Origin: Lachnoclostridium sp. An181
GTDB lineage: Bacteria > Bacillota > Clostridia > Lachnospirales > Lachnospiraceae
Length of the DNA: 64,000 bases
NCBI RefSeq assembly: GCF_002160325.1
Contig: NZ_NFKJ01000006.1
Span: forward strand, 1-64,000
Reading direction: 5' to 3'
The position numbers and the translations under genes were made by a program. Position 1 is the stretch's first letter. Every line of letters starts with the position of its first letter. Below are positions 42,600-56,800 of this stretch, piece by piece. The notes beneath the pieces were generated by a model. The model was not told the DNA's origin and made no database searches. It was given only the letters and a program-made list of their open reading frames with translations.

Positions 42600-43391
42600 C
42601 TAGCACACTTTTTCCTGTTTGTCAAACATTTCCCCGGCCCGGTAACGCTCCTTTAAGTCTTCCAGCAAGGATGGCCCGGCAGGCTGCAGTTTCATTTTCT
42701 CATCTTGCAGGCGCTTTTTCAGCTCCTCCTCAATTTTCCCATATGCCTCTTTTCCCTTTATCAGCGTTTCATACGCTTGTTTATCCATATATTTTCTGCA
42801 GCAGTAAAGATAAGGGGCGAGCAGTGACTCTTCCTTCCATACTTCGTATGCCTTCTCGTACATTGCTGCCGCCTGTTCATACAAGAACTGTTTTCCGTAC
42901 AAGGCCCCCATACACGCATAAACTCTTCCCTCAAACTCTTTTTTTGTTTCCTCTTTTTCCCTGATGTCTTTGAGAATCTCCATGTACACGAGCATTGCCT
43001 CCTCCAGCTGGCCATCATCAGCCAGGCTGTCTGCCTTGAATTTTTTGCGCTCTGTCTCATTTTGATTTTTCAGTTTCTCCAGAACGGATGCAACCTTTTC
43101 CAATTCCTTTTCCGTATAGAGCGGGATGCTTTTTAGAATGAGCATGACAAACTGTTCCGGAGAACCGCAAGACCTGCATATCCGAAAGAGCCTTCCCGCC
43201 AATGCCTCCATTCCAAGTTCCTCAAAAATCCATGAACAGAGTCCCTCATTTAAGATACCCTCATCAACCATATATAAATATTCATTCAAATAGTATCCAA
43301 GCTCCTCCAACGTATAAACCTTCCGGTGTATTCCTGCCAGTTCATACGGCTGGGATGCCTTTTGGCTATAGCAAAGAATTAAACTGCCCAT
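42600..43391 (-). CDS. Helical-repeat (TPR-like) protein of the DUF5717/DUF5716 cluster
   Basis: In this 263-aa soluble protein, residues 110-230 show TPR-like pairs (AMLVYMEILKDIREKEETKKEFEGRVYACMGALYGKQF, AAAMYEKAYEVWKEE). A CRSCGS turn lies near residue 75. It starts 26 nt inside the end of the DUF5716 gene, so it belongs to the same operon. Probably a scaffold subunit of the same complex; function unknown. Confidence 0.65.
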   Translation of the reverse strand: MGSLILCYSQKASQPYELAGIHRKVYTLEELGYYLNEYLYMVDEGILNEGLCSWIFEELGMEALAGRLFRICRSCGSPEQFVMLILKSIPLYTEKELEKVASVLEKLKNQNETERKKFKADSLADDGQLEEAMLVYMEILKDIREKEETKKEFEGRVYACMGALYGKQFLYEQAAAMYEKAYEVWKEESLLAPYLYCCRKYMDKQAYETLIKGKEAYGKIEEELKKRLQDEKMKLQPAGPSLLEDLKERYRAGEMFDKQEKVC

Positions 43392-44649
43392 TGCTGCCTC
43401 CTAACTGGATCTTCCTCTCTGTCTTCCGCCCCGCAGGTGCAAAAAACTCTCCAAATCCAATATCTTCCACTGATATTTTACACATCTTTTCATTCTCAAA
43501 AATGACCTGGATCTTCAGACGCACAGAATAGCCTTTTCTCCTTGGAAAACCTTTCAGACTGAGCGGATAGTGTCTCTTTTCACCTGTCACCAAGGATTCA
43601 ACGATTATGTTGATTTCATCCAGATCATCTGCAATAGCCTCCCACTCGCCGTCTGATTCATACCATCTCGCACCCCAAAAAACAAGTGGCTGCCAGAATT
43701 CTCCTTCACCTTTGCGCACCTTCACGGAAATCTGCTCCATCATCTTTGTCTCATCCAGGTATACAGCCCCGTCCCAGAACCCGCAATGTCTTCGAAATGC
43801 AGTATAGCAGGCTCCTTTGCTGTAAAGATTGTTTCCGGCAAACGCTTTTCTTCCATTGCACAACACTTTTAAAGAATCCGGAAACCAGCGTGTATCAAAT
43901 CCCTCTCCTGTCAAATACACGGAAGAGATCAGCTTTTTTTCAAAGACCCCTTCAATAAAGCGTTTAAACTGCAGATCTGCATTCTTGGCAGCTTCTTTGT
44001 CCACCATGGAGTAGACAGTTTCCATCTCCGAAATCTGTGCTCCTGCCACTTCATCCACAGTCACAAACACTCTCTCATCTGTGGTCTTTGGACTTTTCAC
44101 TTTTCTAAGCATAAAAGCACGGATTTCTGTATGGTCACAGTAAAAAAGCGCCGCCTCATACTGCCACAGCTCCTTTGGCTGGTAAAACATGTACTGACAG
44201 AAACTTTCCTTGTAATCCTGGACATAAACATTCTCTTTTCTGACACCAATCCTCTGGGCCACACCTTTTAAAATCTTTGCAAGATCAATGTTCATCTTTG
44301 GGACAGAGAAGGTAATCCCATCAATCTTTTGAAATTTCTGCAGGGAAAGCTGGACAAATTTTGCAAGAAGCCAGACAGACTCATATATGTTTCCTTCTAT
44401 TTCTATTTTTTCCTGAAGCATGACAAGGGAGAGAAGACCGGATACCGTGACCCCTTTTCCAAGCCTTTCCATCTCAACAGCATCCTTGCCATAACTCCAT
44501 GTGTCATGGGAATAGCCGAGCACCATCGGAATCTGGTCATAATCATCTTCCGCTTCCAATGTAAGGGGCTCCTGCGTTATTTCATCATAATAGCTGATTT
44601 GGCAGCCTCTGTCATTCAAATCATATCCTATGATACTGCCTTTCCTCAT
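43366..44649 (-). CDS. DUF5716 family protein (actin/HSP70-like fold)
   Basis: The 427-aa protein starts MRKGSIIGYDLNDRGCQISYY, an actin/HSP70-like first beta hairpin, with VTFSVPKMN... and KENVYVQDYKESFCQYMFYQPKELWQY resembling the HSP70 ATPase core layout. Standard phosphate loops (DLGTT, GGG) are degenerate, so ATP hydrolysis is uncertain. The C-terminal 100 residues form a beta-rich domain. The ATG at 44649 lies after GGAGG, 20 nt downstream of the DUF5717 stop. It matches the DUF5716 family of Clostridia. Confidence 0.75.
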   Translation of the reverse strand: MRKGSIIGYDLNDRGCQISYYDEITQEPLTLEAEDDYDQIPMVLGYSHDTWSYGKDAVEMERLGKGVTVSGLLSLVMLQEKIEIEGNIYESVWLLAKFVQLSLQKFQKIDGITFSVPKMNIDLAKILKGVAQRIGVRKENVYVQDYKESFCQYMFYQPKELWQYEAALFYCDHTEIRAFMLRKVKSPKTTDERVFVTVDEVAGAQISEMETVYSMVDKEAAKNADLQFKRFIEGVFEKKLISSVYLTGEGFDTRWFPDSLKVLCNGRKAFAGNNLYSKGACYTAFRRHCGFWDGAVYLDETKMMEQISVKVRKGEGEFWQPLVFWGARWYESDGEWEAIADDLDEINIIVESLVTGEKRHYPLSLKGFPRRKGYSVRLKIQVIFENEKMCKISVEDIGFGEFFAPAGRKTERKIQLGGSNGQFNSLL

Positions 44650-44669
44650 GTTTTCCCTTCCTCCATTCT

Positions 44670-47600
44670 TTAGTACAATACAAACATCTCTTCTGCTGCC
44701 ATTTCTTCTGACTGATAGCCGTCCATCCCTTTTATCGAGCCTTTTTCTTTGCACATTTGATTGATTCTTCCGTACCTTCCCTCCGCATCAGTATCTTTTG
44801 GAAGATAAGACATTTTTTCACTCACACTTTCTTTTTCTTCCCTTATCTCTTTCCACTGATAGCGAAGACATTCGTCCGAAAATACAACAATCTCCTTTAC
44901 ATAAATATTCTCAAACACCGGCTCCAAAATCTCAGACTGATACACTGCCCCCTCCAGCTCTTCCGGGCCAATCTGATAATAAAGCTTTACTTTTCCTCCA
45001 AATTTTGCATGGTATTCCACCATCACCTTATCGTGTAGCATCAGTTCCTGCAGCCACTGTTTTGGATATTTCAGATAGAACGGAAAGAGAATGCTCTTTA
45101 AGCGCATTTCCTTCATGAATCCTTTGAGCATGGAGCCCAGCGTTTCGGATAACTCTTTTCCTGCATAGAATTTAAGAAGAGCAATCCTGCAAACCTGCGC
45201 AAGCTCTTCTCCTTGCCCAAACTCTTTTTCCATGATTTCAAAAATACAGGAGGACACAATCCTTTCCTTCACGACATATTCCTGTGCCATATAAGCCAAA
45301 TATGCCTGTTTGATCCTGAAATACGGCTCTCTCTCATAGTAATACTGAAAAATTTCTTCGCTTCCTGTCACTTCCTCTGCAAACAGCATCTGTGTAATAA
45401 TTTTCTCTGCCAGATTTTGTGCGGAAATTTTCTTTTCCACAGCAGCATGCCAAAGTCTTTTCATCTTTTTGGTAGCCCCGCAATAATACTGCGCCAGATA
45501 AGCAAGGCTCACCTGATCATACTGACCCCTTTCAAACAGCCAAAAAGCTAAAAAGGTTAAATAATCGTCCTCTGCGTACTCCGTTTCTTGAATCTTCCCT
45601 GTACATACCTTCAATACATCAGCCAGTTCATAGGCATCCGGTCCTTTTTGTTTTACGCTGTCAAAGGTCACTTCTTCTATCTCCTGTGCCCCTTTCCTGT
45701 CTCCGGATCCATCCATGTAGGTTTTACAAAGTTCAATGTAGATTGGCTCATAAAACAGTCTTTCCGTATCATAGCCAATGGAATCCGTATAGTACATCCC
45801 GTCCTTTGACTCCCACACAATCCGTGCCTCTTTGTCATAGAGATAGACTTTTGTCCCTTCCCCTTTGTATGGGATATGCTGGTTTACTTTTCCGTCTTTT
45901 TCTATCACAAGAATCCACTTCATCCGTGGATTTTTTGTCTTCACCTCATAGGCATGGCATATGTCATTGAGCGCATTCATCCGCTTTGCATCCAGATACC
46001 TCACATTTAAGAATTTCCGGTATATAATGCGCAGCTGCTCATTGATATGACGTTTCGACAGCTGGCTCCATGCAAACTTTTCCATTTCTTCTCTGTAATG
46101 TCTGTAAATCTGCCCTTCTTCATCCTCGTTTTGAATTATATCTGCATACAGAAACGCAGCTTTTTTATATGGAAGTGTGTTGCCGTACATAAAGTAAAGA
46201 TGGACACTCTTCTGCAGCCTTCCCCGAAACTTCCTGACATCCAAAGACAGCATATAGTATTCGTAGAGCTGGGCAATCTTTAATCCTTCCTGCACAGCCA
46301 TTTCATACCATTTAAAGTATTCTCCGGAAGTTCTGTTGTCTTTAATCAGCATCGTGCAGATTGCAAACAGGAGTGATTTTTCCTTGTATTCCCCATACAG
46401 ACGCATCAAAAGACGCAGCAGCATCCGGTTGAATTCCTTTTTCTGGCTAGCGAGATTTGCAATGTAAAAGGCCATCTCAGATGAGATAAGTCGGTATTTT
46501 GCCGCAAAATTCAGAACCTGGATTTCAAATGCTCCCAGTCGTTTGAGAGTTTCCTTTTTCTCCCTGTAACAACGGTAACACTCTCTGTAAAACAAAATTT
46601 CATTCGCCCCGATCGGTGCCTGTGTTTTGATCGCCTTCAGTCTCTTCTCCGGTGTTTTGTACTCCGGATGGATATTGAGCATCATACAGAAAAGACTCCA
46701 GGAATCTGTGTTCTGAGAATATGCTTTTTCTATCTCCTCTATCACCCGTTGCACATGGCTTCCTTCTTTGCGGATGCAGGCTGTTAAAAAGAGATAATAT
46801 GAATTTTTCTCCGGCCATTCGCTCAATTGCAACCGATTGTAATCATAGTTTTCCAAAATCCATTTAGCCTTCTCTTCTTTTCCTGCATACAGACATGCAT
46901 GTGCCTGCATGAAAAGATAGATTTCATTTCTGCTCTCCTCATACAGCTTTTTCAGACTTTCCAGCGAATCTTTCAGCCATACCTCTTTTCCCAGATCTCC
47001 CCGGTCGCATTTAAGAAGATTTTTCAAGATGTTTGCCAGAACAAGACGCTCCCCGCAAGAAACCTGTTCCTTTGGTTCTTTCCACACATCCACCTGATAC
47101 ACAAGCTCCTCGTATGGAGTATAAAAAATGATTTTCCCGTAATTGTGACCCGCATGCAGTTTCTTGTCATCAATTGTATACGCAAAATCATATACATTTG
47201 AAATAAAATGTTCTGTGCAGAACTCCTCCCGCTCTGTTGACAAAAATTCTCCGACAGTCTCTGCCTTTATCTTCATATATCCCCATGTATTTTTCTCAAT
47301 TGGAATCAATTCTTTCACCGGCTCAGATATATTGGAAAATTTCTTTTCATTCTCCTTAAGAGTGAGAAAAATCCTCTCTTTTTGTTTGATTCCGACCAAA
47401 AACTCTTCCATAGCCTGCTCGCCAAGAGACCACCTTCTCATATTGCCGTATAAATTGTAAATCCTTGGCTCTTCATGCTTGAGCAGCCCGTAAAATTCTC
47501 TGGAGCGGAACAGGCGATGTGCCACATCATAATCCTGCATGGCAAGATTTTTAAAATCTCTGATGCTCTGAATTTTCCCATACTCTGTCATCAAATAGGG

Positions 47601-47942
47601 TTTTTCGATCACAGCCGTGAATTTGATGTCATACTCTCCGCCATTGCACACAACAGTGAAAGCCCCGCACTCAACATTGCCAGGCATCAGTCCTCTTCCA
47701 TCATAAACAAACTCCAGTTTCACTGCAGTCCCCTCAAATCCCTGTTCTTTAAAACGCACTCTCAAGGAAGAGGTATAGACAAGCCCCCTTATCTTTCCTC
47801 CTCCCTTCCCTTTGATCTCAAAATTTCCTCTATACTGTTTTCCCTCTTCCACATGTATGATGATCTGTGTCTTAGGAAAAATAATATCCGGATGCGTCAT
47901 CTGGAAATTTCCTTTTGCAAATTTATTTATTTTATTCTTCAT
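44670..47942 (-). CDS. DUF5717 family large helical-solenoid protein
   Basis: The 1090-aa protein has no signal peptide or membrane segment. The N-terminal about 130 residues form a beta-sandwich with IIFPKTQIIIHVEEGKQYRGNFEIKG and KGGGKIRGLVYTSSLRVRF; the middle (about 300-980) is a long run of helical hairpins, and the C-terminal 80 residues are beta-rich. It matches DUF5717, which is usually beside DUF5716. It leads the three-gene operon. A role as a large scaffold binding a partner (perhaps a chaperone-like complex) is my inference. Confidence 0.75.
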   Translation of the reverse strand: MKNKINKFAKGNFQMTHPDIIFPKTQIIIHVEEGKQYRGNFEIKGKGGGKIRGLVYTSSLRVRFKEQGFEGTAVKLEFVYDGRGLMPGNVECGAFTVVCNGGEYDIKFTAVIEKPYLMTEYGKIQSIRDFKNLAMQDYDVAHRLFRSREFYGLLKHEEPRIYNLYGNMRRWSLGEQAMEEFLVGIKQKERIFLTLKENEKKFSNISEPVKELIPIEKNTWGYMKIKAETVGEFLSTEREEFCTEHFISNVYDFAYTIDDKKLHAGHNYGKIIFYTPYEELVYQVDVWKEPKEQVSCGERLVLANILKNLLKCDRGDLGKEVWLKDSLESLKKLYEESRNEIYLFMQAHACLYAGKEEKAKWILENYDYNRLQLSEWPEKNSYYLFLTACIRKEGSHVQRVIEEIEKAYSQNTDSWSLFCMMLNIHPEYKTPEKRLKAIKTQAPIGANEILFYRECYRCYREKKETLKRLGAFEIQVLNFAAKYRLISSEMAFYIANLASQKKEFNRMLLRLLMRLYGEYKEKSLLFAICTMLIKDNRTSGEYFKWYEMAVQEGLKIAQLYEYYMLSLDVRKFRGRLQKSVHLYFMYGNTLPYKKAAFLYADIIQNEDEEGQIYRHYREEMEKFAWSQLSKRHINEQLRIIYRKFLNVRYLDAKRMNALNDICHAYEVKTKNPRMKWILVIEKDGKVNQHIPYKGEGTKVYLYDKEARIVWESKDGMYYTDSIGYDTERLFYEPIYIELCKTYMDGSGDRKGAQEIEEVTFDSVKQKGPDAYELADVLKVCTGKIQETEYAEDDYLTFLAFWLFERGQYDQVSLAYLAQYYCGATKKMKRLWHAAVEKKISAQNLAEKIITQMLFAEEVTGSEEIFQYYYEREPYFRIKQAYLAYMAQEYVVKERIVSSCIFEIMEKEFGQGEELAQVCRIALLKFYAGKELSETLGSMLKGFMKEMRLKSILFPFYLKYPKQWLQELMLHDKVMVEYHAKFGGKVKLYYQIGPEELEGAVYQSEILEPVFENIYVKEIVVFSDECLRYQWKEIREEKESVSEKMSYLPKDTDAEGRYGRINQMCKEKGSIKGMDGYQSEEMAAEEMFVLY

Positions 47943-48071: not shown

Positions 48072-49169
48072 ATGAACATAAAACCATCCTTCCATGGAAG
48101 TGATCTAGAAAAAGTTGCAGAATACTATCACATTCCCCGGGATAAAATTGTCTGCTACAGCGCAAATGTAAATCCACTCGGTCTTTCCGAACATCTAAAA
48201 GATCTTTTATGTCAAAATCTGGATATCCTAAGTTCCTATCCGGACCGTGAGTACAGATCATTGCGCATGCATGCTGCACGTTACTGCAATACATCTGACG
48301 AATATATTGTCCCCGGAAACGGAACGACAGAGCTTATCACGCTTGCAATCTCTGTTCTGGGTCCAAAACATGCCTTGCTGCTTGGTCCTTCTTATTCCGA
48401 ATACACAAGAGAACTTACACTTGCCGGCTGCTCTTACAAAAGCTACTATCTGAAAAAAAGGCAGGATTTCCGTCTTGACATGGATGACTTTTTGAAAACA
48501 CTTTCAGAACACCCTGAGGTGGATTTTATAATTTTGTGCAATCCAAACAACCCAACTTCATCCGCACTGACAGTTGACGAAATCCGCATTCTTCTAAAGA
48601 CATGCCAAAAACATAATGTATTTGTCATGATCGATGAAACATACTGTGAATTTTCTCCAAAAAATATCAGCGCAGTACCGCTTGTTGTTTCCTTTAAAAA
48701 CCTTCTCGTTTTACGGGGCCTGTCCAAATTTTTTGCAGCCCCTGGACTTCGGCTTGGATACGGCGTGACAAGCAGTCCATATCTTCTAAGACAGATGCGG
48801 GAAGTCCAAAACCCGTGGAGCGTCAACAGCGCTGCTGCCTTTGCCGGGGAAGTCCTCTTTGACGACACAAGCTATATCGGCAATGTGCGTTCACTTATCG
48901 AGGAGGAGCGCAGCCGTATGATGCGGGAACTGTCCAGTTGGAAAAATATCAGGCTGTATCCTGCCTATGCAAACTTTATCCTGATTGAAATCACAAAGCC
49001 TCACACCACATCGTATGACGTGTTTGAATATCTGATCCAAAACCATCTGATGGTGAGGGACTGCAGCTCATTTCCGGGTCTTGACGGAGAATTCATCCGT
49101 TTCTGCATTATGCTTCCGAAAGAAAATGACCGGCTTTTGCAGCATTTGAAGACATTTCTTGAGACATAG
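48072..49169 (+). CDS. Class I aminotransferase, CobD/HisC-like
   Basis: The 365-aa PLP enzyme has ANVNPLGLSE, PGNGTTELI, CNPNNPTS, DETYCEF and the PLP lysine K219 in LRGLSKFFAAPGLRLGYG. The pattern fits threonine-phosphate decarboxylase (CobD) or histidinol-phosphate aminotransferase. No cobalamin or histidine genes flank it, so the role cannot be settled by context. It is divergent from the DUF5717 gene and has its own terminator. Confidence 0.85.
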   Translation: MNIKPSFHGSDLEKVAEYYHIPRDKIVCYSANVNPLGLSEHLKDLLCQNLDILSSYPDREYRSLRMHAARYCNTSDEYIVPGNGTTELITLAISVLGPKHALLLGPSYSEYTRELTLAGCSYKSYYLKKRQDFRLDMDDFLKTLSEHPEVDFIILCNPNNPTSSALTVDEIRILLKTCQKHNVFVMIDETYCEFSPKNISAVPLVVSFKNLLVLRGLSKFFAAPGLRLGYGVTSSPYLLRQMREVQNPWSVNSAAAFAGEVLFDDTSYIGNVRSLIEEERSRMMRELSSWKNIRLYPAYANFILIEITKPHTTSYDVFEYLIQNHLMVRDCSSFPGLDGEFIRFCIMLPKENDRLLQHLKTFLET

Positions 49170-49247: not shown

Positions 49248-51224
49248 CTATTTGACAATTCTGTAATATTCTCTCGCTGTAGCCATATATACCACTGCAT
49301 AAACAGCGGCAAAAACGAACACTGTTCCCACGGTTCCCTTCACGAACATCTCTGCATTATTCAAATTCATCACCGCAAGTATTTTCTTCATCATGCTAAA
49401 TGCCGCCACCACATGGATACATGCGCACACAAGAGGTATAAAGAATACCATCAGTGTCTGGCTTCTGATGCTGGCCCTGATTTCTTTTTCACTCATTCCT
49501 ACCTTTTTCATAATCTCAAATCTTGCCTTGTCATCATGTCCTTCCGATATCTGTTTATAGTAGATGATCAGCACTGTGGCCATGATAAAGATGGCTCCTA
49601 GGAACAGCCCAAGGAACAAAAATCCCCCGTAAAACTGGGAAAAAGTTTCTCTGTTTTCTTCCCTTCCCTCAACACTTCCGGCAAGTCCATGTTCCCGAAG
49701 ATAAGCAGATACCTGTGCGGACACCTGTTTCTCCGTCTCTTTCGTGTCATTGACAAGTGTGATGCCTTTATAATATTCCATACCTTCCGTATTGACATCT
49801 GTGCCCTCATAATATTTTGCGGCAAACTCCATAGCATCCTCCTGGTTCATCACAAAGATGTACACATCTCCCATGAAAGCCGCATACTCCCCGGCAACCG
49901 GAACCTTTGAAATCTGTTTTACAATCTTCCAGCTTTTGTCTTCGTAGCTGATCACACCATCCAGTTTTTCTCCCCTTAAGGCAAAGACTCCGATCTGTCC
50001 TTTGTTCAGCTTTAGATCATCTCCACAGATTCGATTGTAATCTCCAATCTCCAAAAGCAAAATCCCCGTCAGGTTCGTCATATCACCCAGTTTGTTGAAA
50101 TTCTTGATCCTTCCGTCTTTTACAACAGTTGTCAACGAATAACTGCGGTAAGAGATTTCCGTTTTCTTTTCTAAATGGCTGTCGGTTAAAATATTATCAA
50201 CTGTCTTTGACAGTTTGTCTGCCTCTTCCCTGCTTACATTTTTTACCTCTATACTTAAGCTTGCCGGATAACGGGTATGGATAATGTCTTCAATTCCCAC
50301 ATTCATGCTGACCGTTGTCGATACCATGACAAGCACCATTGTGGAAAGAATACAGATGTTTGCCAATCCCACTGCATTTTGTTTCATTCGGTATATCATT
50401 CCGGAAACCATTGTAAAATGATTTGGTTTATAATAAAATTTTTTATTCTTTTTTAGGAATTTCAACAAAAGAATGCTGCCTGCACTGAAGACGAAATAGG
50501 TTCCCACGATCACAAACAGGACGGAAATAAAAAATTTAAACATGGCCTCCACCGGAGATTCCACCGTGTTCGCAATATAATATCCAATTCCCACAAACAA
50601 AAACCCCAAAATTCCAGTGATCCATTTTGTTTTTGGCTCCTTTTCTCCAACCTGCCCTCCCTTTAAAAGCTCCACTGGATTGGAAAGATGGATCTGACGG
50701 ACTGCATTTGCATAAATGAAAAGAAAAATAACCCCAAACATGCACGCCGAAACTAAGATTCCATGAATATTGATCTCAATCCCAAATACAACATGGAAAT
50801 CCATGATGCGCAACAGCAAAAGCAAGACTAGTTTGCTTAAAAATATTCCAAAGATGATTCCGCCCGCAAAGCTGACAAATGCAATGTACACGGTCTCAAA
50901 AAACATCATTTTTGCGATATGTTTTTTCTCCATTCCCAGAATATTGTAAAGCCCAAATTCTTTTTTCCTTCTCTTTATAAGAAAACTATTTGTATAAAAC
51001 AGGAAGATCACTGCAAACAGTCCGACAATGATCACCCCATAAAACAGTAACGTGCGGATTGTACTCGCTTCCGGAAGAGTATCCATGCTCTTTGAAAATG
51101 TAAGAGCATAGATAATATAAAACATCGCGATCGTTCCAACACAGGTAAGCATATAAGGAACATAATCCTTTCTGTTCTTTTTCATATTCTCGCGCGCCAG
51201 TTTCCAAAAAAATCCTTTATTCAT
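49248..51224 (-). CDS. BceB-like ABC transporter permease (FtsX family)
   Basis: The 658-aa protein has ten predicted membrane helices and a large extracytoplasmic domain between helices 7 and 8 (about residues 310-510), the hallmark of BceB-type transporters that detoxify or sense cell-wall-active peptides. FtsX motifs appear in NILGMEKKHIAKMMFFETVYIAF and KVGMSEKEIRASIRSQTLMVFF. The ATG at 51224 overlaps the ATPase stop by 8 nt. The sensor kinase upstream shares no ligand domain, so this transporter likely acts as the sensor. Confidence 0.9.
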   Translation of the reverse strand: MNKGFFWKLARENMKKNRKDYVPYMLTCVGTIAMFYIIYALTFSKSMDTLPEASTIRTLLFYGVIIVGLFAVIFLFYTNSFLIKRRKKEFGLYNILGMEKKHIAKMMFFETVYIAFVSFAGGIIFGIFLSKLVLLLLLRIMDFHVVFGIEINIHGILVSACMFGVIFLFIYANAVRQIHLSNPVELLKGGQVGEKEPKTKWITGILGFLFVGIGYYIANTVESPVEAMFKFFISVLFVIVGTYFVFSAGSILLLKFLKKNKKFYYKPNHFTMVSGMIYRMKQNAVGLANICILSTMVLVMVSTTVSMNVGIEDIIHTRYPASLSIEVKNVSREEADKLSKTVDNILTDSHLEKKTEISYRSYSLTTVVKDGRIKNFNKLGDMTNLTGILLLEIGDYNRICGDDLKLNKGQIGVFALRGEKLDGVISYEDKSWKIVKQISKVPVAGEYAAFMGDVYIFVMNQEDAMEFAAKYYEGTDVNTEGMEYYKGITLVNDTKETEKQVSAQVSAYLREHGLAGSVEGREENRETFSQFYGGFLFLGLFLGAIFIMATVLIIYYKQISEGHDDKARFEIMKKVGMSEKEIRASIRSQTLMVFFIPLVCACIHVVAAFSMMKKILAVMNLNNAEMFVKGTVGTVFVFAAVYAVVYMATAREYYRIVK

Positions 51225-51984
51225 ATCTTCCACCACCTGTCGCTATCATGGTCAGAGTATCTGAAATCTTCTGATACAGCTCTTCATTGGTGAGATTTCC
51301 GCGGTATATCTGATGATACACCTGGCCGTCTTTGATAAATAAAACTCTGCCCGCATGGCTCGCTGCTTTCGTACTGTGCGTCACCATCAAAATGGTCTGT
51401 CCTTCTGCATTGATGTCCGAAAACAATCCCAAAAGCTGATCTGATGACCGGGAGTCCAGTGCTCCTGTCGGTTCGTCCGCCAAAATAAGTTTTGGATTTG
51501 TGATCAGTGCCCTTGCCACCGCTGTTCTCTGTTTCTGCCCTCCGGAAACTTCATAAGGATATTTAGAAAGAATATTTCCAATCTCTAATTTTCTCGCTAT
51601 AGGGAAAAGTCTTTTTTGCATCTCATCGTATTTGACTCCCGCCAAAACAAGGGGAAGGAAAATATTATCCTGAAGAGAAAAGGTATCCAAAAGATTAAAA
51701 TCCTGGAATACAAACCCCAGGTTTTCTCTCCGGAATGCTGCTATCTCCTTTTCCCTGATTGTTGAAAGATCCATTCCATTCAGCAATACTTGCCCGGATG
51801 TGGCCTTGTCAAGCGCTGCCAAAATGTTCAAAAGCGTTGTCTTTCCTGAGCCGGACTCGCCCATGATCGCCACGTACTCTCCTTTTTCCACAGAAAAAGT
51901 AACATCTTCCAGCGCATTTACCCTTTGTTTTCCAAACCTCGTTGTGTATATCTTTTTTACATGATTGACTTTTAAAATGCTCAT
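51217..51984 (-). CDS. BceA-like ABC transporter ATP-binding protein
   Basis: The 255-aa ATPase has Walker A GESGSGKTT, signature VSGGQKQR and Walker B LILADEPTGALD. It pairs with the BceB-like permease. The gap of 119 nt to the kinase gene contains an operator-like region at 52051-52098. Confidence 0.92.
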   Translation of the reverse strand: MSILKVNHVKKIYTTRFGKQRVNALEDVTFSVEKGEYVAIMGESGSGKTTLLNILAALDKATSGQVLLNGMDLSTIREKEIAAFRRENLGFVFQDFNLLDTFSLQDNIFLPLVLAGVKYDEMQKRLFPIARKLEIGNILSKYPYEVSGGQKQRTAVARALITNPKLILADEPTGALDSRSSDQLLGLFSDINAEGQTILMVTHSTKAASHAGRVLFIKDGQVYHQIYRGNLTNEELYQKISDTLTMIATGGGRYE

Positions 51985-52050
51985 CTCTTCTGCCTCCTTT
52001 TTCTGTTAACAGTATACCGAAAAAAAGAAATGCAACACCATTGTTTCTCG

Positions 52051-52098
52051 TTACATTTCTTTGTTTTAACCTTACACTTTTGAAAGGTTCCCTGTAAG
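52051..52098. promoter_or_regulatory. Putative response-regulator operator before bceA-like gene
   Basis: TTACA occurs at 52051 and again at 52072 (21 bp, two helical turns apart), and the second is mirrored by TGTAAGG at 52092-52098. Spaced TTACA/TGTAA elements resemble BceR-type binding sites upstream of BceAB operons. It lies in the leader of the transporter genes, so stress-induced transcription would start there. Confidence 0.45.
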
Positions 52099-52103
52099 GA
52101 CGG

Positions 52104-53099
52104 CTATTCAATTTCTACTTTGCGCATTGTAAAGTCAATGGAAACTTTTGTGCCCTCCCCAGGAGCCGATGTAATCTCTATTTTGTGGGACAGACCAGAT
52201 AAAATTTCTTTACAAAGATATAGTCCGATACCGCTGGCTCTTTTTTCTTCCCTTCCGTTGTAGCCGGTAAACCCTCTTTCAAATACCCGCGGAAGATCTT
52301 CCGGTGCAATTCCTATGCCTTCATCTTCCACGATCAATTTCATCCCTTCGTTCCGGATATGGATGATCCCACCCCTCTTGGTATATTTCAGTGCATTGGA
52401 GAGAATCTGCTCCAGAACAAAGGAGCTCCACTTCTCATCTGTCAGCACTTCTGTCCAAAATTCATCCATATCCAAGCGTATCCTCTTCCGTATAAAGGAG
52501 CCACTGTATTTTTTTACAGCCGTCTTTGTCATCTCGAATAAATCTGTTTTTTTAAGTACAAGATCCTGCGACATATCTCCAAGCCGTGCATACTGGAGAA
52601 CCATCTCCACATACTGTTCTGTGCGAAAAAGTTCATCCTGCATTTCCTCTCTGGAAATCTCTTCATCGGACTGCACCATCAGGCGCATTGCTGCGATCGG
52701 TGTTTTTATTTGGTGCGCCCAGAGAGTGTAGTAATCCAGCGCATCTTTTTTCTTCTGAACTTCCCTCTCCAGATTTTGTCTTCCCTGTCTGTCTATGGCG
52801 CGCAAAGCGTTCCGGTATGCCCCCTCAAGTGCTGACTCTGTCTCCGGAAACTCGTCCAGAACAAGAATATTCCCGTCCTCTACACTGTTTAGACTGGACA
52901 TTTTCTCTTTCCACTTAGGATATTCCAGAAACAGAGTCCCTGTCTCTATCGCCAAAAATATCAGTACCATGTAGACAAAACTTTCTGCAGATATCCGGTA
53001 TAGATAGCCAATGAGTGCCACCGCCACAAAAAATATTGCCACCCTGATCCAACTTCTTTTATATTCTCCGATATAGCGCAGCATAGTATTTTGCCCCAT
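52104..53099 (-). CDS. BceS-like sensor histidine kinase
   Basis: The 331-aa kinase has two membrane helices (residues 18-35 and 42-58) separated by only a few residues, so it lacks a sensing domain, as in intramembrane-sensing kinases. The phosphoacceptor H129 lies in LWAHQIKTPIAAMRL; the ATPase has ILSNALKYT, VEDEGIGI and GIGLYLCKEIL. It relies on the BceAB-like transporter for signal detection. Confidence 0.92.
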   Translation of the reverse strand: MGQNTMLRYIGEYKRSWIRVAIFFVAVALIGYLYRISAESFVYMVLIFLAIETGTLFLEYPKWKEKMSSLNSVEDGNILVLDEFPETESALEGAYRNALRAIDRQGRQNLEREVQKKKDALDYYTLWAHQIKTPIAAMRLMVQSDEEISREEMQDELFRTEQYVEMVLQYARLGDMSQDLVLKKTDLFEMTKTAVKKYSGSFIRKRIRLDMDEFWTEVLTDEKWSSFVLEQILSNALKYTKRGGIIHIRNEGMKLIVEDEGIGIAPEDLPRVFERGFTGYNGREEKRASGIGLYLCKEILSGLSHKIEITSAPGEGTKVSIDFTMRKVEIE

Positions 53100-53116
53100 A
53101 TTTTTTCCCCCTGATT

Positions 53117-53788
53117 CTAGTCAACTGTATAGCCGATCCCTTTTTTTGTCCTGACATAATCCACAAGCCCAACATTGGCAAGTTTTTTTCTAAGCCTTGT
53201 CACATTCACGGTCAAGGTATTATCATCAACAAAACTCTCCGTCTCCCAGAGACGTTTCATCAATTCATCCCTGGAGACAATTTTTCCACTGTTTTCCAGG
53301 AGAACCTCCAGAATCCGGAATTCATTTTTTGTCAGTTCCACTTTTTCCTCTTTATATAAGAATGTTGCATCTTTCAGACTGAGCACAAGTCCTCTGTGTT
53401 CAATGATATTCATGGTACCCTGATAAGCATAACTGCGCCTTACCATAGCCTGGATTTTGGCGGTGATCACATCCAGATCAAACGGTTTTTCAATGAAATC
53501 GTCTCCTCCCATATTCATAGCCATCACAATATTCATATTGTCCGAGGATGAGGAGATGAAAATGACAGGGATCGTACTAACTTTTCTTATCTCCTGACAC
53601 CAATGAAAACCATTGAAAAATGGGAGACTGATATCCATCAGGATCAGATCCGGACTAAAAGCGCTTACTTTTGCCATCACATTTTTGAAATCTTCCACAT
53701 AATCGACTTCGTAATTCCATTTCTTCAGATGCCCCTTCAGGATTCGTGCAATTGTCACATCATCTTCCACGATCAGTATTTTGTACAT
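53117..53788 (-). CDS. BceR-like response regulator (OmpR family)
   Basis: The 223-aa protein has receiver residues D9, D10 and phospho-acceptor D52 (LILMDISLP), K in EKPFDLD, and a C-terminal winged helix with KNEFRILEVLLENSGKIVSRDEL and TVNVTRLRKKL. The ATG at 53788 follows GAGAGGAGA; longer in-frame extensions run into the carB terminator. It is 17 nt upstream of the kinase gene. Confidence 0.93.
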   Translation of the reverse strand: MYKILIVEDDVTIARILKGHLKKWNYEVDYVEDFKNVMAKVSAFSPDLILMDISLPFFNGFHWCQEIRKVSTIPVIFISSSSDNMNIVMAMNMGGDDFIEKPFDLDVITAKIQAMVRRSYAYQGTMNIIEHRGLVLSLKDATFLYKEEKVELTKNEFRILEVLLENSGKIVSRDELMKRLWETESFVDDNTLTVNVTRLRKKLANVGLVDYVRTKKGIGYTVD

Positions 53789-53818
53789 GTCTTCTTCTCC
53801 TCTCAAAATACAGAACTT

Positions 53819-53860
53819 GGCAGGATGCCAAAAAGTTTCCTCTCTTTTTGACACCCTGCC
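53819..53860 (-). terminator. Terminator between carB and the response regulator
   Basis: Arms GGCAGGGTGTCAAAAAG and CTTTTTGGCATCCTGCC (minus strand) separate the carB transcript from the bceRS-like genes. Confidence 0.7.
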
Positions 53861-53873
53861 ATCTGTGGTTTTT

Positions 53874-56800
53874 CTATTCGATTGTGGCGATATCCACAAG
53901 AGTAAGTTTATCCACTGTGTTATCTTCCAGACTGGTGATGAGTGCTTCCGCTGTATCCATGGCTGTCAAAACATTGACACCTGTCTCAATTGCATTTCTG
54001 CGGATGACAAAACCATCCCTTGCTCTGTCCGCACCCTGCGGCGGCAGGTCAATGATAAGATCGATTTCATGTCCTAAGATCAAATCCATCAGGTTCGGGG
54101 ATTCCTGCTCGATCTTATTGACAGGGATTGCCTTCACTCCAGCTGCGTTCAGCGCATCTGCAGTTCCTCTTGTCGCAAAAATACGGTACCCGATGTTTGC
54201 AAATCTGCGACCGATCTCCACAGCCTCCGCTTTTTCAGAGTCGCGGATCGTCATGATCATATTTTTATGTTTCGGAAGATTGATGCCTGCTCCTAAAAAC
54301 GCTTTATAGAGAGCCTCATCAAAAGTCTTTGCAATTCCAAGGCATTCTCCTGTTGATTTCATCTCAGGTCCAAGGCTGATGTCCGCGCCGCGGATTTTCT
54401 CAAAGGAAAATACCGGCATCTTGATCGCAAAATATTCTGCCTCTTTTTGGAGTCCAGGTGTGTAGCCAAGTTCTTTTATCTTCTTTCCGGTGATCACTTT
54501 TGTTGCCAGCGGAACGATCGGGATTCCGGTCACTTTGCTGATATATGGAACTGTACGGCTGGAACGAGGGTTTACCTCGATGACATACACCTCTTCTCCG
54601 CACACAATGAACTGGATGTTGATCAGTCCGATCACATGCAAAGACTTCGCCAGCCTTTTTGTGTATTCTTCGATTTTCTTCTTTGTCGTCTCGCTGATAC
54701 TTTTTGCCGGGTAAACGGAGATACTGTCTCCGGAGTGAATACCTGCACGTTCAATGTGTTCCATGATTCCAGGAATCAGGATATCCTCCCCGTCACAGAC
54801 CGCATCAACTTCAATCTCTTTTCCTACCAGGTACTTGTCTACAAGAATCGGGTGATCCTGTGCAATGCGGTTGATGATTCCGATAAACTCTTCAATATCA
54901 TGGTCATTGATGGCAATCTGCATACCCTGTCCGCCGAGAACATAAGAAGGTCTTACAAGCACCGGATAGCCCAGTCTGTTTGCGACTTCCTTTCCTTCTT
55001 CCGCTGTGAACACAGTACCTCCCTTTGGACGAGGGATTCCGCATTTTTCAAGAATTTCGTCAAAAAGTTCTCTATCTTCTGCAGCGTCCACGTTCTCAGC
55101 GGATGTTCCAAGGATCTGTACACCCATTTTCATGAGCGCCTCTGTCAATTTGATCGCTGTCTGGCCGCCAAACTGTACGACCGCTCCGTCCGGTTTCTCC
55201 AAGTCCACGATCGCCTCCACATCTTCCGGAGTCAATGGCTCGAAGTAAAGTTTATCTGCAATGTCAAAGTCTGTACTTACTGTTTCCGGATTATTGTTGA
55301 TGATGATCGTCTCATAACCTTCTTTTTCAAATGCCCATGTACAATGAACAGAACAGAAGTCAAATTCGATTCCCTGTCCGATACGGATTGGGCCGGAACC
55401 AAGGACAAGTACTTTCTTTTTGTCATTGGACGGCAGCGCCTCATTCTTTCCTCCGTATACAGAATAGTAATACGGTGTGGATGCCTCAAATTCTGCTGCA
55501 CAGGTATCTACCATCTTGTAAGCTGGTATGATGTCATTGTCTTTTCTCATCTTGCGCACTTCTTCTGTCGTCCTGCCGCTTAAGGAGGCGATCAGATAAT
55601 CCGGAAATTCCATCCGTTTTGCCTCTTTTAAAAGCTCCGGCGTAAGCTCTTCTTTCCTCAATGCATCTTCCATCTTGACAAGATTATGGATTTTATCAAT
55701 AAACCATCTGTCAATCTTTGTGATGTTGAAAATCTCATCGTAGGAGATTCCTTTTCTGAGTGCTTCTGCGATCACCCAGATTCTTCTGTCGTCCACCACG
55801 TGGAGCTGTTCAATGAGCTCGTCCCTTGAAAGAGCCGTAAAGCCATAGGACATCAGGCTGTCCACATGCTGCTCCAAAGAACGGATGGCTTTCATAAGTC
55901 CACCCTCAAAATTGTCACAGATACTCATTACTTCTCCGGTCGCCTTCATCTGCGTTGTCAATGTTCTCTTTGCACTGATAAATTTATCAAACGGAAGTCT
56001 TGGAAGTTTTACAACGCAGTAATCCAGTGTCGGCTCATAGCTTGAGAATGTTGTCTTTGTGATGGCATTCGGAATCTCATCCAATGTATACCCGAGTGCG
56101 ATCTTTGCAGCTACCTTTGCGATCGGATATCCTGTCGCTTTTGACGCAAGCGCTGAAGAACGGCTCACCCTAGGATTTACCTCAATAACGCAATACTCAA
56201 AGCTGTCCGGATGAAGCGCAAACTGTACGTTACATCCTCCTGTAATCTTCAGCTCAGTGATGATATTCAGAGCGGATGTACGAAGCATCTGATATTCTTT
56301 ATCTCCAAGTGTCTGGGACGGTGCCACTACGATACTGTCTCCTGTGTGTACGCCAACCGGATCAATATTCTCCATATTACAGATTGTAATACAGTTGCCA
56401 GCGCTGTCCCTCATCACCTCATACTCTACCTCTTTCCATCCTGCGATACATCTCTCTACGAGAACTTGTCCTACACGGGAAAGACGCAGACCATTTTCCA
56501 GGATCTCCACCAGCTCCTCTTCATTGTGGGCAATTCCGCCGCCGCTTCCTCCCAGTGTATAAGCTGGTCTTAACACAACCGGATATCCGATTTTCGCAGC
56601 AAAATCACGTCCGTCTTCCACATTCTCCACAACTAAAGACGCTGCGATCGGCTCGCCGATTTTTTCCATCGTCTCTTTAAATTCCAATCGGTCTTCTGCC
56701 TTTTTGATCGTCTCGCTCGTTGTACCGATCAATCTTACGTTATTTTCCTTCAAAAACCCTTTCTCTTCAAGCTCCATGGCAAGGTTTAAGCCCGCCTGGC

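Follow-up and report, generated by a model that had tools for sequence, protein, structure and literature searches.

What do three adjacent genes of Lachnoclostridium sp. An181 do, two of which encode the uncharacterized families DUF5717 and DUF5716 and the third a tetratricopeptide repeat (TPR)-type protein? In this study, the question was addressed by computation on a stretch of 64,000 nucleotides (contig NZ_NFKJ01000006.1, positions 1 to 64,000), here called the window. The DUF5716 protein was shown to be a degenerate Hsp70 that has lost its ATPase motifs but keeps the peptide-binding beta domain. The origin of the trio as a reduced form of a dedicated Hsp70/GrpE operon was well supported, since the orthologous locus is larger in other families. 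The trio is probably a reduced Hsp70 chaperone operon, present in nearly all Lachnospiraceae, whose cytosolic complex would hold a client without an ATP cycle.

The trio and its degenerate Hsp70

The three genes were adjacent and co-oriented open reading frames on the minus strand of the window:

44670..47942, minus strand: DUF5717 protein, 1090 aa (amino acids); Pfam PF18984 and PF18983; AlphaFold2 model with predicted local distance difference test (pLDDT) 83.9 and predicted template modelling score (pTM) 0.49
43366..44649, minus strand: DUF5716 protein, 427 aa, a pseudo-Hsp70 with nucleotide-binding domain (NBD) and substrate-binding beta domain (SBDbeta), without lid; Pfam PF18980; DnaK profile, Foldseek and VIA matches
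42600..43391, minus strand: TPR-type protein of 263 aa whose N-terminal domain is conserved (PY..IYSxEEL.Y-type motif); sub-threshold Pfam TPR; found in 40 of 41 loci by profile; its orthologue is the last gene of a long operon in other families

The initial annotation had proposed a three-gene DUF5717-DUF5716-TPR cluster, which was borne out by the open reading frames, the Pfam assignments and the same order in 41 loci of the family. It had also proposed one overlapping operon. The genes were indeed adjacent and co-oriented, and DUF5716 and TPR overlapped by 26 bp, but DUF5717 and DUF5716 were 20 bp apart. A longer reading of DUF5716 (462 aa) is a GTG extension upstream; the start common to relatives is 44649 (427 aa), and therefore the first two genes do not overlap. 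With automatic starts, the DUF5717-DUF5716 gap had a median of 17 bp over 113 loci (60 bp or less in 99 of them), and DUF5716 and TPR overlapped in 92 of 106 loci.

The DUF5716 protein matched Pfam DUF5716_C (PF18980) at 4e-94. A profile of 28 DUF5716 proteins was compared with the PDB and matched DnaK at 2e-7 over the whole sequence, in the NBD and weakly in the SBDbeta. The SBDbeta alignments to DnaK (about 399-461 and 437-501) were not significant alone. The AlphaFold2 model (pLDDT 76, pTM 0.71) matched DnaK over nearly its whole length in Foldseek (2e-17). VIA-align gave Z 21.9 and a root-mean-square deviation (rmsd) of 7.2 over 386 residues (DnaK 2-513), and Z 21.8 and rmsd 4.2 over 283 residues against an NBD alone. 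The chain stops where the DnaK lid would start. Among the 50 matches listed, the structural matches were Hsp70-type chains or larger complexes. An actin/HSP70-like protein had been annotated initially; the call can be narrowed to Hsp70, by the sequence match and by the peptide-binding beta domain, which is not found in actins. The two domains of DUF5716 were placed as follows:

43774..44649, minus strand: degenerate NBD of DUF5716, residues 1-292, much of subdomain IIB gone (motif counts in 121 family members versus 50 intact Hsp70 paralogues)
43405..43773, minus strand: SBDbeta of DUF5716, residues 293-415, boundary approximate (weak alignment to DnaK about 399-461; whole-length structural match to DnaK 2-513)

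Motifs were counted on one alignment of 121 family DUF5716 proteins, 18 sister DUF5716-like proteins and 50 intact Hsp70s, the last from the long operon described below. In the Hsp70s, DxGTTN, SxKR, DFGGGTxD and GGS(S/T) were kept in nearly all rows; the motif gaps in the Hsp70-VWA group (VWA, von Willebrand A) came from one truncated row. In the family proteins, TT, the catalytic Lys of SxKR and GGGT were lost, and both phosphate loops were gone; the first Asp of loop 1 was kept in 61%, with Glu in 37%. The sister proteins showed an intermediate state, the first Asp being kept in 94% and TT, Lys and GGGT largely lost. About 66 residues of subdomain IIB before the adenosine motif were gone from the family proteins (median 77 versus 143). 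From loop 2 to the adenosine motif, the median was 77 residues, compared with 145-179 in the three Hsp70 groups. The columns of the subdomain IIB helix (ERLS) were gapped in 97-100% of DUF5716 rows at four of six positions. The stepwise loss from operon Hsp70s through sister proteins to the family indicated that DUF5716 is a pseudo-Hsp70 with traceable erosion, and the degenerate phosphate loops noticed initially were thereby confirmed against intact paralogues.

DUF5716 has the NBD-SBDbeta fold and order of DnaK and HscA, and the phosphate-1 and adenosine-loop positions are recognisable. It differs from them in its length of 427 aa, in the absence of the lid, the catalytic lysine, TT, GGGT and much of IIB, and in having no adjoining GrpE or J-protein gene.

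The long Hsp70/GrpE operon and the origin of the trio

The orthologous locus was examined in 23 genomes that belong to nine further families within the order. A longer operon was found there, with the order DUF5717, Hsp70 'a', GrpE-domain protein, DUF5716-like protein, Hsp70 'c', Hsp70-VWA fusion and TPR, and not every gene was seen in every one of the nine families:

L168:1077-12034, and L172:8564-18996 with L194 and L197: long operon with two intact Hsp70s, GrpE-domain protein, DUF5716-like protein, Hsp70-VWA and TPR
L195:13373-15463, also in L197, L194 and L201: Hsp70 with a C-terminal von Willebrand A domain, DTTGSM motif

Hsp70 'a' matched PF00012 at 7e-70 and was present in 22 of the 23 genomes; Hsp70 'c' matched at 1e-60 and was present in 18. 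The GrpE-type protein carried its GrpE domain (3e-13) at the C-terminus and had 560-650 aa, except for one genome with 279 aa. Its gene was found in 20 of 23 genomes, two of the three misses running off the contig, and the GrpE domain of the copy in L172 was not recognised by Pfam. The DUF5716-like protein, matching both PF18980 and PF00012, was present in 18 of 23 genomes; an unmatched 412-aa protein occupied its position in genome G525. The fusion protein matched PF00012 at 6e-92 and VWA_4 at 5e-12. Where the downstream stretch was covered (13 genomes), Hsp70-VWA was found in 12 and TPR in 11. The N-terminal and C-terminal parts of DUF5717 were often split and in some cases fused, and a split DUF5717 stood without adjoining Hsp70 genes in one genome (G585). 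The last protein, of about 390 aa, is by its sequence a true orthologue of the window TPR protein, because the PY..IYSxEEL.Y-type N-terminal motif is common to both.

Of 20 genomes that have the long operon, 19 had a second GrpE gene, and the contig is cut in the one miss (G413). Operon-type GrpE was found in none of 21 genomes of the window's family. Nineteen of these had one GrpE match; the second match of G012 was below the cut-off, and G005 (6% contamination) had three matches, all of canonical length. In the window's genome, the sole strong Hsp70 match was dnaK beside grpE on contig C1, with two weaker matches in addition. The loss of the Hsp70s, the Hsp70-VWA and the GrpE-type gene on the branch to the window's family was well supported.

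The long operon, which occurs in several families of the order, appears to be a hitherto undescribed Hsp70 system. A literature search by name found no mention of DUF5717 and only irrelevant mentions of DUF5716. By topic, no description of the short or long operon was found among the papers listed, those on atypical Hsp70s being judged by title. In the available part of its report, Myxococcus DnaK2 is a specialised Hsp70 with its own GrpE gene (PMC11019930), a pairing of Hsp70 and exchange factor that the long operon also shows. DnaK2 differs, as far as that part goes, in being a single DnaK paralogue, with neither scaffold genes nor a pseudo-Hsp70.

Directly upstream of the long operon lay a gene for a coiled-coil protein that has two or three membrane-like segments and weak ZorA/TACC matches only. 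It might be a membrane tether for the long-operon machine. It was found at these positions:

L169:10328-11650, L180:1821-2993, L183:7696-9144, L175:5770-7155 and L186:11645-12940: coiled-coil protein with membrane-like segments

The two forms were also compared by their surroundings. A divergent aminotransferase gene (window 48072-49169) adjoins the window operon and flanks the long operon in 11 of 23 other-family genomes. A membrane coiled-coil protein, C5, followed TPR in 14 of 41 loci, and also adjoined valS in genomes without DUF5717. In three loci of two families without DUF5717 (L211, L212 and L215), the aminotransferase stood directly beside C5 and valS; this arrangement is the probable empty site before the operon arrived. 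C5 was considered as a fourth component of the trio and rejected. It is an old neighbour of the insertion site, because the C5-valS pairing exists without DUF5717 and no match to C5 was found in the window's genome.

A tree of the C-terminal part of DUF5717 was built from 67 rows with a quick method and a midpoint root. The short-operon loci all lay on one side of a branch with a support of 97 (Shimodaira-Hasegawa-like approximate likelihood ratio test, SH-aLRT). The long operon of G411 was placed next to the short-operon side (99), and the other long operons lay beyond it (99). The simplest reading was that the long operon was first and was reduced once, in the window's family; an intact Hsp70 site must also precede an eroded one. 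In genome G438, which is without DUF5717, a small gene cluster for a GrpE-like protein, an Hsp70 and two TPR proteins was observed (L219:9642-14887); it is possibly a relative of the long operon's ancestor.

A broader scenario can be put forward tentatively. A machine of several Hsp70s, GrpE and Hsp70-VWA may have been inserted once in the order's ancestry, between the aminotransferase and C5-valS. Its ATPases may then have been lost in one family, and the peptide-binding complex that stayed, now without a motor, would be hard for that family to lose. Nearly every Lachnospiraceae cell would thus have an ATP-independent pseudo-Hsp70 assembly.

Occurrence of the trio and its partner proteins

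Genome searches covered the family, order and class levels. DUF5717_N was found in 117 of 120 family genomes, one per genus (99 of 101 among those of good quality), and DUF5716_C in 59 of 60. The placement of the trio on the core chromosome, claimed initially, agreed with these counts. At the order level, DUF5717_N was found in 145 of 295 genomes. At the class level, it was found in 10 of 245, nine of the window's family and one below the cut-off; DUF5716_C was found in 10 of 291, every one of the same family. Three genomes of the family were exceptions. G029 was without both DUF5717 and DUF5716_C; G020 (67% complete) had DUF5716_C, with DUF5717 not found; and G091, searched for DUF5717 only, was without it. 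A genome labelled as another family (G560, f85) has the short operon, for which contamination and transfer are both possible. The trio is thus a near-universal gene set of the Lachnospiraceae, which are among the main gut bacteria.

Gene order was compared between the window and the loci of 40 other genomes of the family. DUF5717 and DUF5716 were adjacent in all 41 loci, and TPR was next in 40 by profile, with the same order throughout; such a neighbourhood is not due to chance. The count of 40 includes two loci (L049 and L070) in which DUF5716 and TPR are a single protein, and TPR was missing by profile in L047 alone. A further 80 loci, the best 80 of 155 relatives, came mostly from Lachnospiraceae genera; the remainder bore broader names (Eubacteriales bacterium, Clostridium sp., Eubacterium sp. 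and 'bacterium'). Open reading frames were called for DUF5717 in 79, DUF5716 in 77 and TPR in 76 of these. In [Ruminococcus] faecis JCM 15917 (L153:5708-8985), DUF5717 lies in two overlapping frames and the TPR gene is short (190 aa); these irregularities are frameshifts or draft errors.

Pfam matched the 1090-aa protein with DUF5717_N at 6e-203 and with the C-terminal DUF5717 family at 4e-85. In the model, two immunoglobulin (Ig) domains of PapD/MSP/ASH type are followed by a helical solenoid, which a beta insert interrupts, and then by a C-terminal beta domain that also has helices; at its pTM of 0.49, domain placement is unsure. The following parts were assigned:

47601..47888, minus strand: DUF5717 residues 19-114, the first Ig domain, PapD/MSP-like (Z 11.2 against FimC by VIA-align, with 92 residues at rmsd 2.0 A)
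47070..47375, minus strand: DUF5717 residues 190-291, the second Ig domain, PapD-like (Z 10.2 against a PapD-like domain of HYDIN by VIA-align, with 98 residues at rmsd 2.4 A)
45045..47063, minus strand: TPR-like alpha-solenoid of DUF5717, residues 294-966, with a beta insert at about 664-728 (model secondary structure; weak solenoid matches)

The PapD-like likeness was at the fold level only, with no sequence match. The structural matches of the solenoid were weak, for example to the Paf1 complex (Z 9.9, rmsd 15.4), and the sequence gave at best marginal TPR matches in the PDB (E 0.07 and worse). In Foldseek, the whole model had low TM-scores, and the domain calls rest on VIA-align.

For the window TPR-type protein, every Pfam TPR match was below the cut-offs. 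Orthologues in other families have unmistakable TPRs, through which the TPR-like nature read from the sequence initially was upheld, though the window copy is sub-threshold.

Possible function of the trio and alternatives

In other families of the order, the same three genes occur in a longer operon with intact Hsp70s and GrpE, which points to Hsp70-type client handling as the process. The absence of membrane segments from the three window proteins, as noted initially, was supported by hydropathy. The three remaining proteins would together form a cytosolic complex. DUF5717 would serve as the scaffold, its TPR-like solenoid carrying PapD-like adaptors. The TPR protein, fused with DUF5716 in some genera, may dock DUF5716. 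The beta domain of DUF5716 would bind an extended peptide of a client, or a partner's tail, with no ATP cycle. In the long-operon families, the Hsp70s, GrpE and the VWA fusion would act with ATP on the same client. We infer that the trio is either an ATP-independent client-holding scaffold or an adaptor to the housekeeping DnaK.

Regulation was also examined. Upstream of DUF5717 in the 115 loci covered, the best CIRCE match had 6 mismatches of 18; the best one in the operon region of the window had 7. Random windows gave 6-9 mismatches, and the element was perfect at dnaK of the window's genome and of two other genomes. It is therefore unlikely that HrcA controls the trio. For a CtsR-type repeat, the best case was a single locus with 3 mismatches, every other locus having more, with no random control. 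Promoter and terminator scans were near shuffled expectation.

Several points weigh against an ATP-independent client-holding complex derived from the long operon. The complex and its client-holding are predicted from genes and models. Without a heat-shock operator upstream, the trio is not a classical stress chaperone. Conservation in the family is equal in the NBD lobes (0.42) and the SBDbeta (0.42), so the peptide-binding part is not singled out. The G-x-D of loop 1 and the G-x-G at the adenosine site persist in many members, and from these leftover residues DUF5716 may retain some nucleotide binding. The DUF5717 tree came from a quick search and is unrooted (the midpoint was drawn), and its polarity rests on the Hsp70 fold.

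In the main rival reading, the trio serves the housekeeping DnaK/DnaJ/GrpE system as a co-chaperone or adaptor, with DUF5716 acting like Ssz1 while DUF5717 and TPR bring DnaK to a fixed place or client. Ssz1, a component of the eukaryotic ribosome-associated complex, is a non-hydrolysing Hsp70 in yeast that helps another Hsp70, and its partner is the J-protein Zuotin. DUF5716 resembles it in its lid-less NBD and SBDbeta layout and, as Ssz1 does, would serve in a dedicated complex. The structures 4gni, 5mb9 and 6sr6 matched DUF5716 at Z 21-22, and VIA-align gave Z 21.8 with rmsd 4.0 over 280 residues for one Ssz1 match and Z 21.5 for a second. This likeness is structural and says nothing on a common subfamily origin. 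Ssz1 differs in having been solved with ATP, whereas DUF5716 adjoins PapD/TPR scaffold genes and has lost more of the site. The canonical dnaK-grpE locus in the window's genome could supply the ATPase after the loss of the dedicated Hsp70s. However, none of the three window proteins had a J-domain match, and DUF5716 has lost much of subdomain IIB, the side of DnaK that GrpE binds. Contact with DnaK is hypothetical, and this role was judged rather unlikely.

That the trio is an Hsp70/GrpE-type system of biological conflict or phage defence was judged very improbable. GTPase-centred GAP1-N2 conflict loci of firmicutes and actinobacteria include HSP70, GrpE and FNIII-TPR proteins, according to the available part of a published survey (PMC7159879), and the firmicute loci with Hsp70 and GrpE genes beside TPR/FNIII proteins resemble the present operons. 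In contrast, the trio is near-universal and apparently inherited vertically at one fixed chromosomal locus in the family, and DUF5716 and DUF5717 are not named in that part of the survey. No GTPase, including the GAP1 type, was found among ten flanking or in-locus proteins scanned. PADLOC gave no match for DUF5717 or DUF5716 at E 0.01; the others had weak NBD/TPR matches only, such as the TPR protein at 1.4e-3 to an 'unknown' model.

A cytoskeletal or cell-division assembly, with DUF5716 as an actin-like filament or an FtsA/PilM-like protein, was likewise judged very improbable. The NBD fold is common to Hsp70 and actin, and weak scores against MreB models were seen for the sister Hsp70s, but DUF5716 matches Hsp70 by sequence and over its whole length, including the SBDbeta foreign to actins, and its long-operon paralogues are Hsp70s beside GrpE. 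A role in sporulation or motility, both common in the family, was the least credible of all: in the phylogenetic profile suggested initially, no link appeared, Spo0A being found in 82 and FliG in 66 of the same 120 genomes, so that DUF5717 occurs in at least 35 genomes that gave no Spo0A match and in at least 51 that gave none for FliG; the window's own genome also had no FliG match.

The reading of DUF5716 as an eroded Hsp70, and of the locus as the remains of an Hsp70/GrpE operon, leads to three predictions that can be tested: DUF5716 would have no ATPase activity, the three proteins would form a stable complex, and their client would be that of the full machine of related families. If true, the trio would offer a clear example from nature of an Hsp70 machine that was kept after the loss of its motor.

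Elsewhere in the window, a large FtsX-type permease and an ABC ATPase, followed by two same-strand genes, were observed at 49248-53899. By eye, this region is a putative export or peptide-sensing module with a two-component system.

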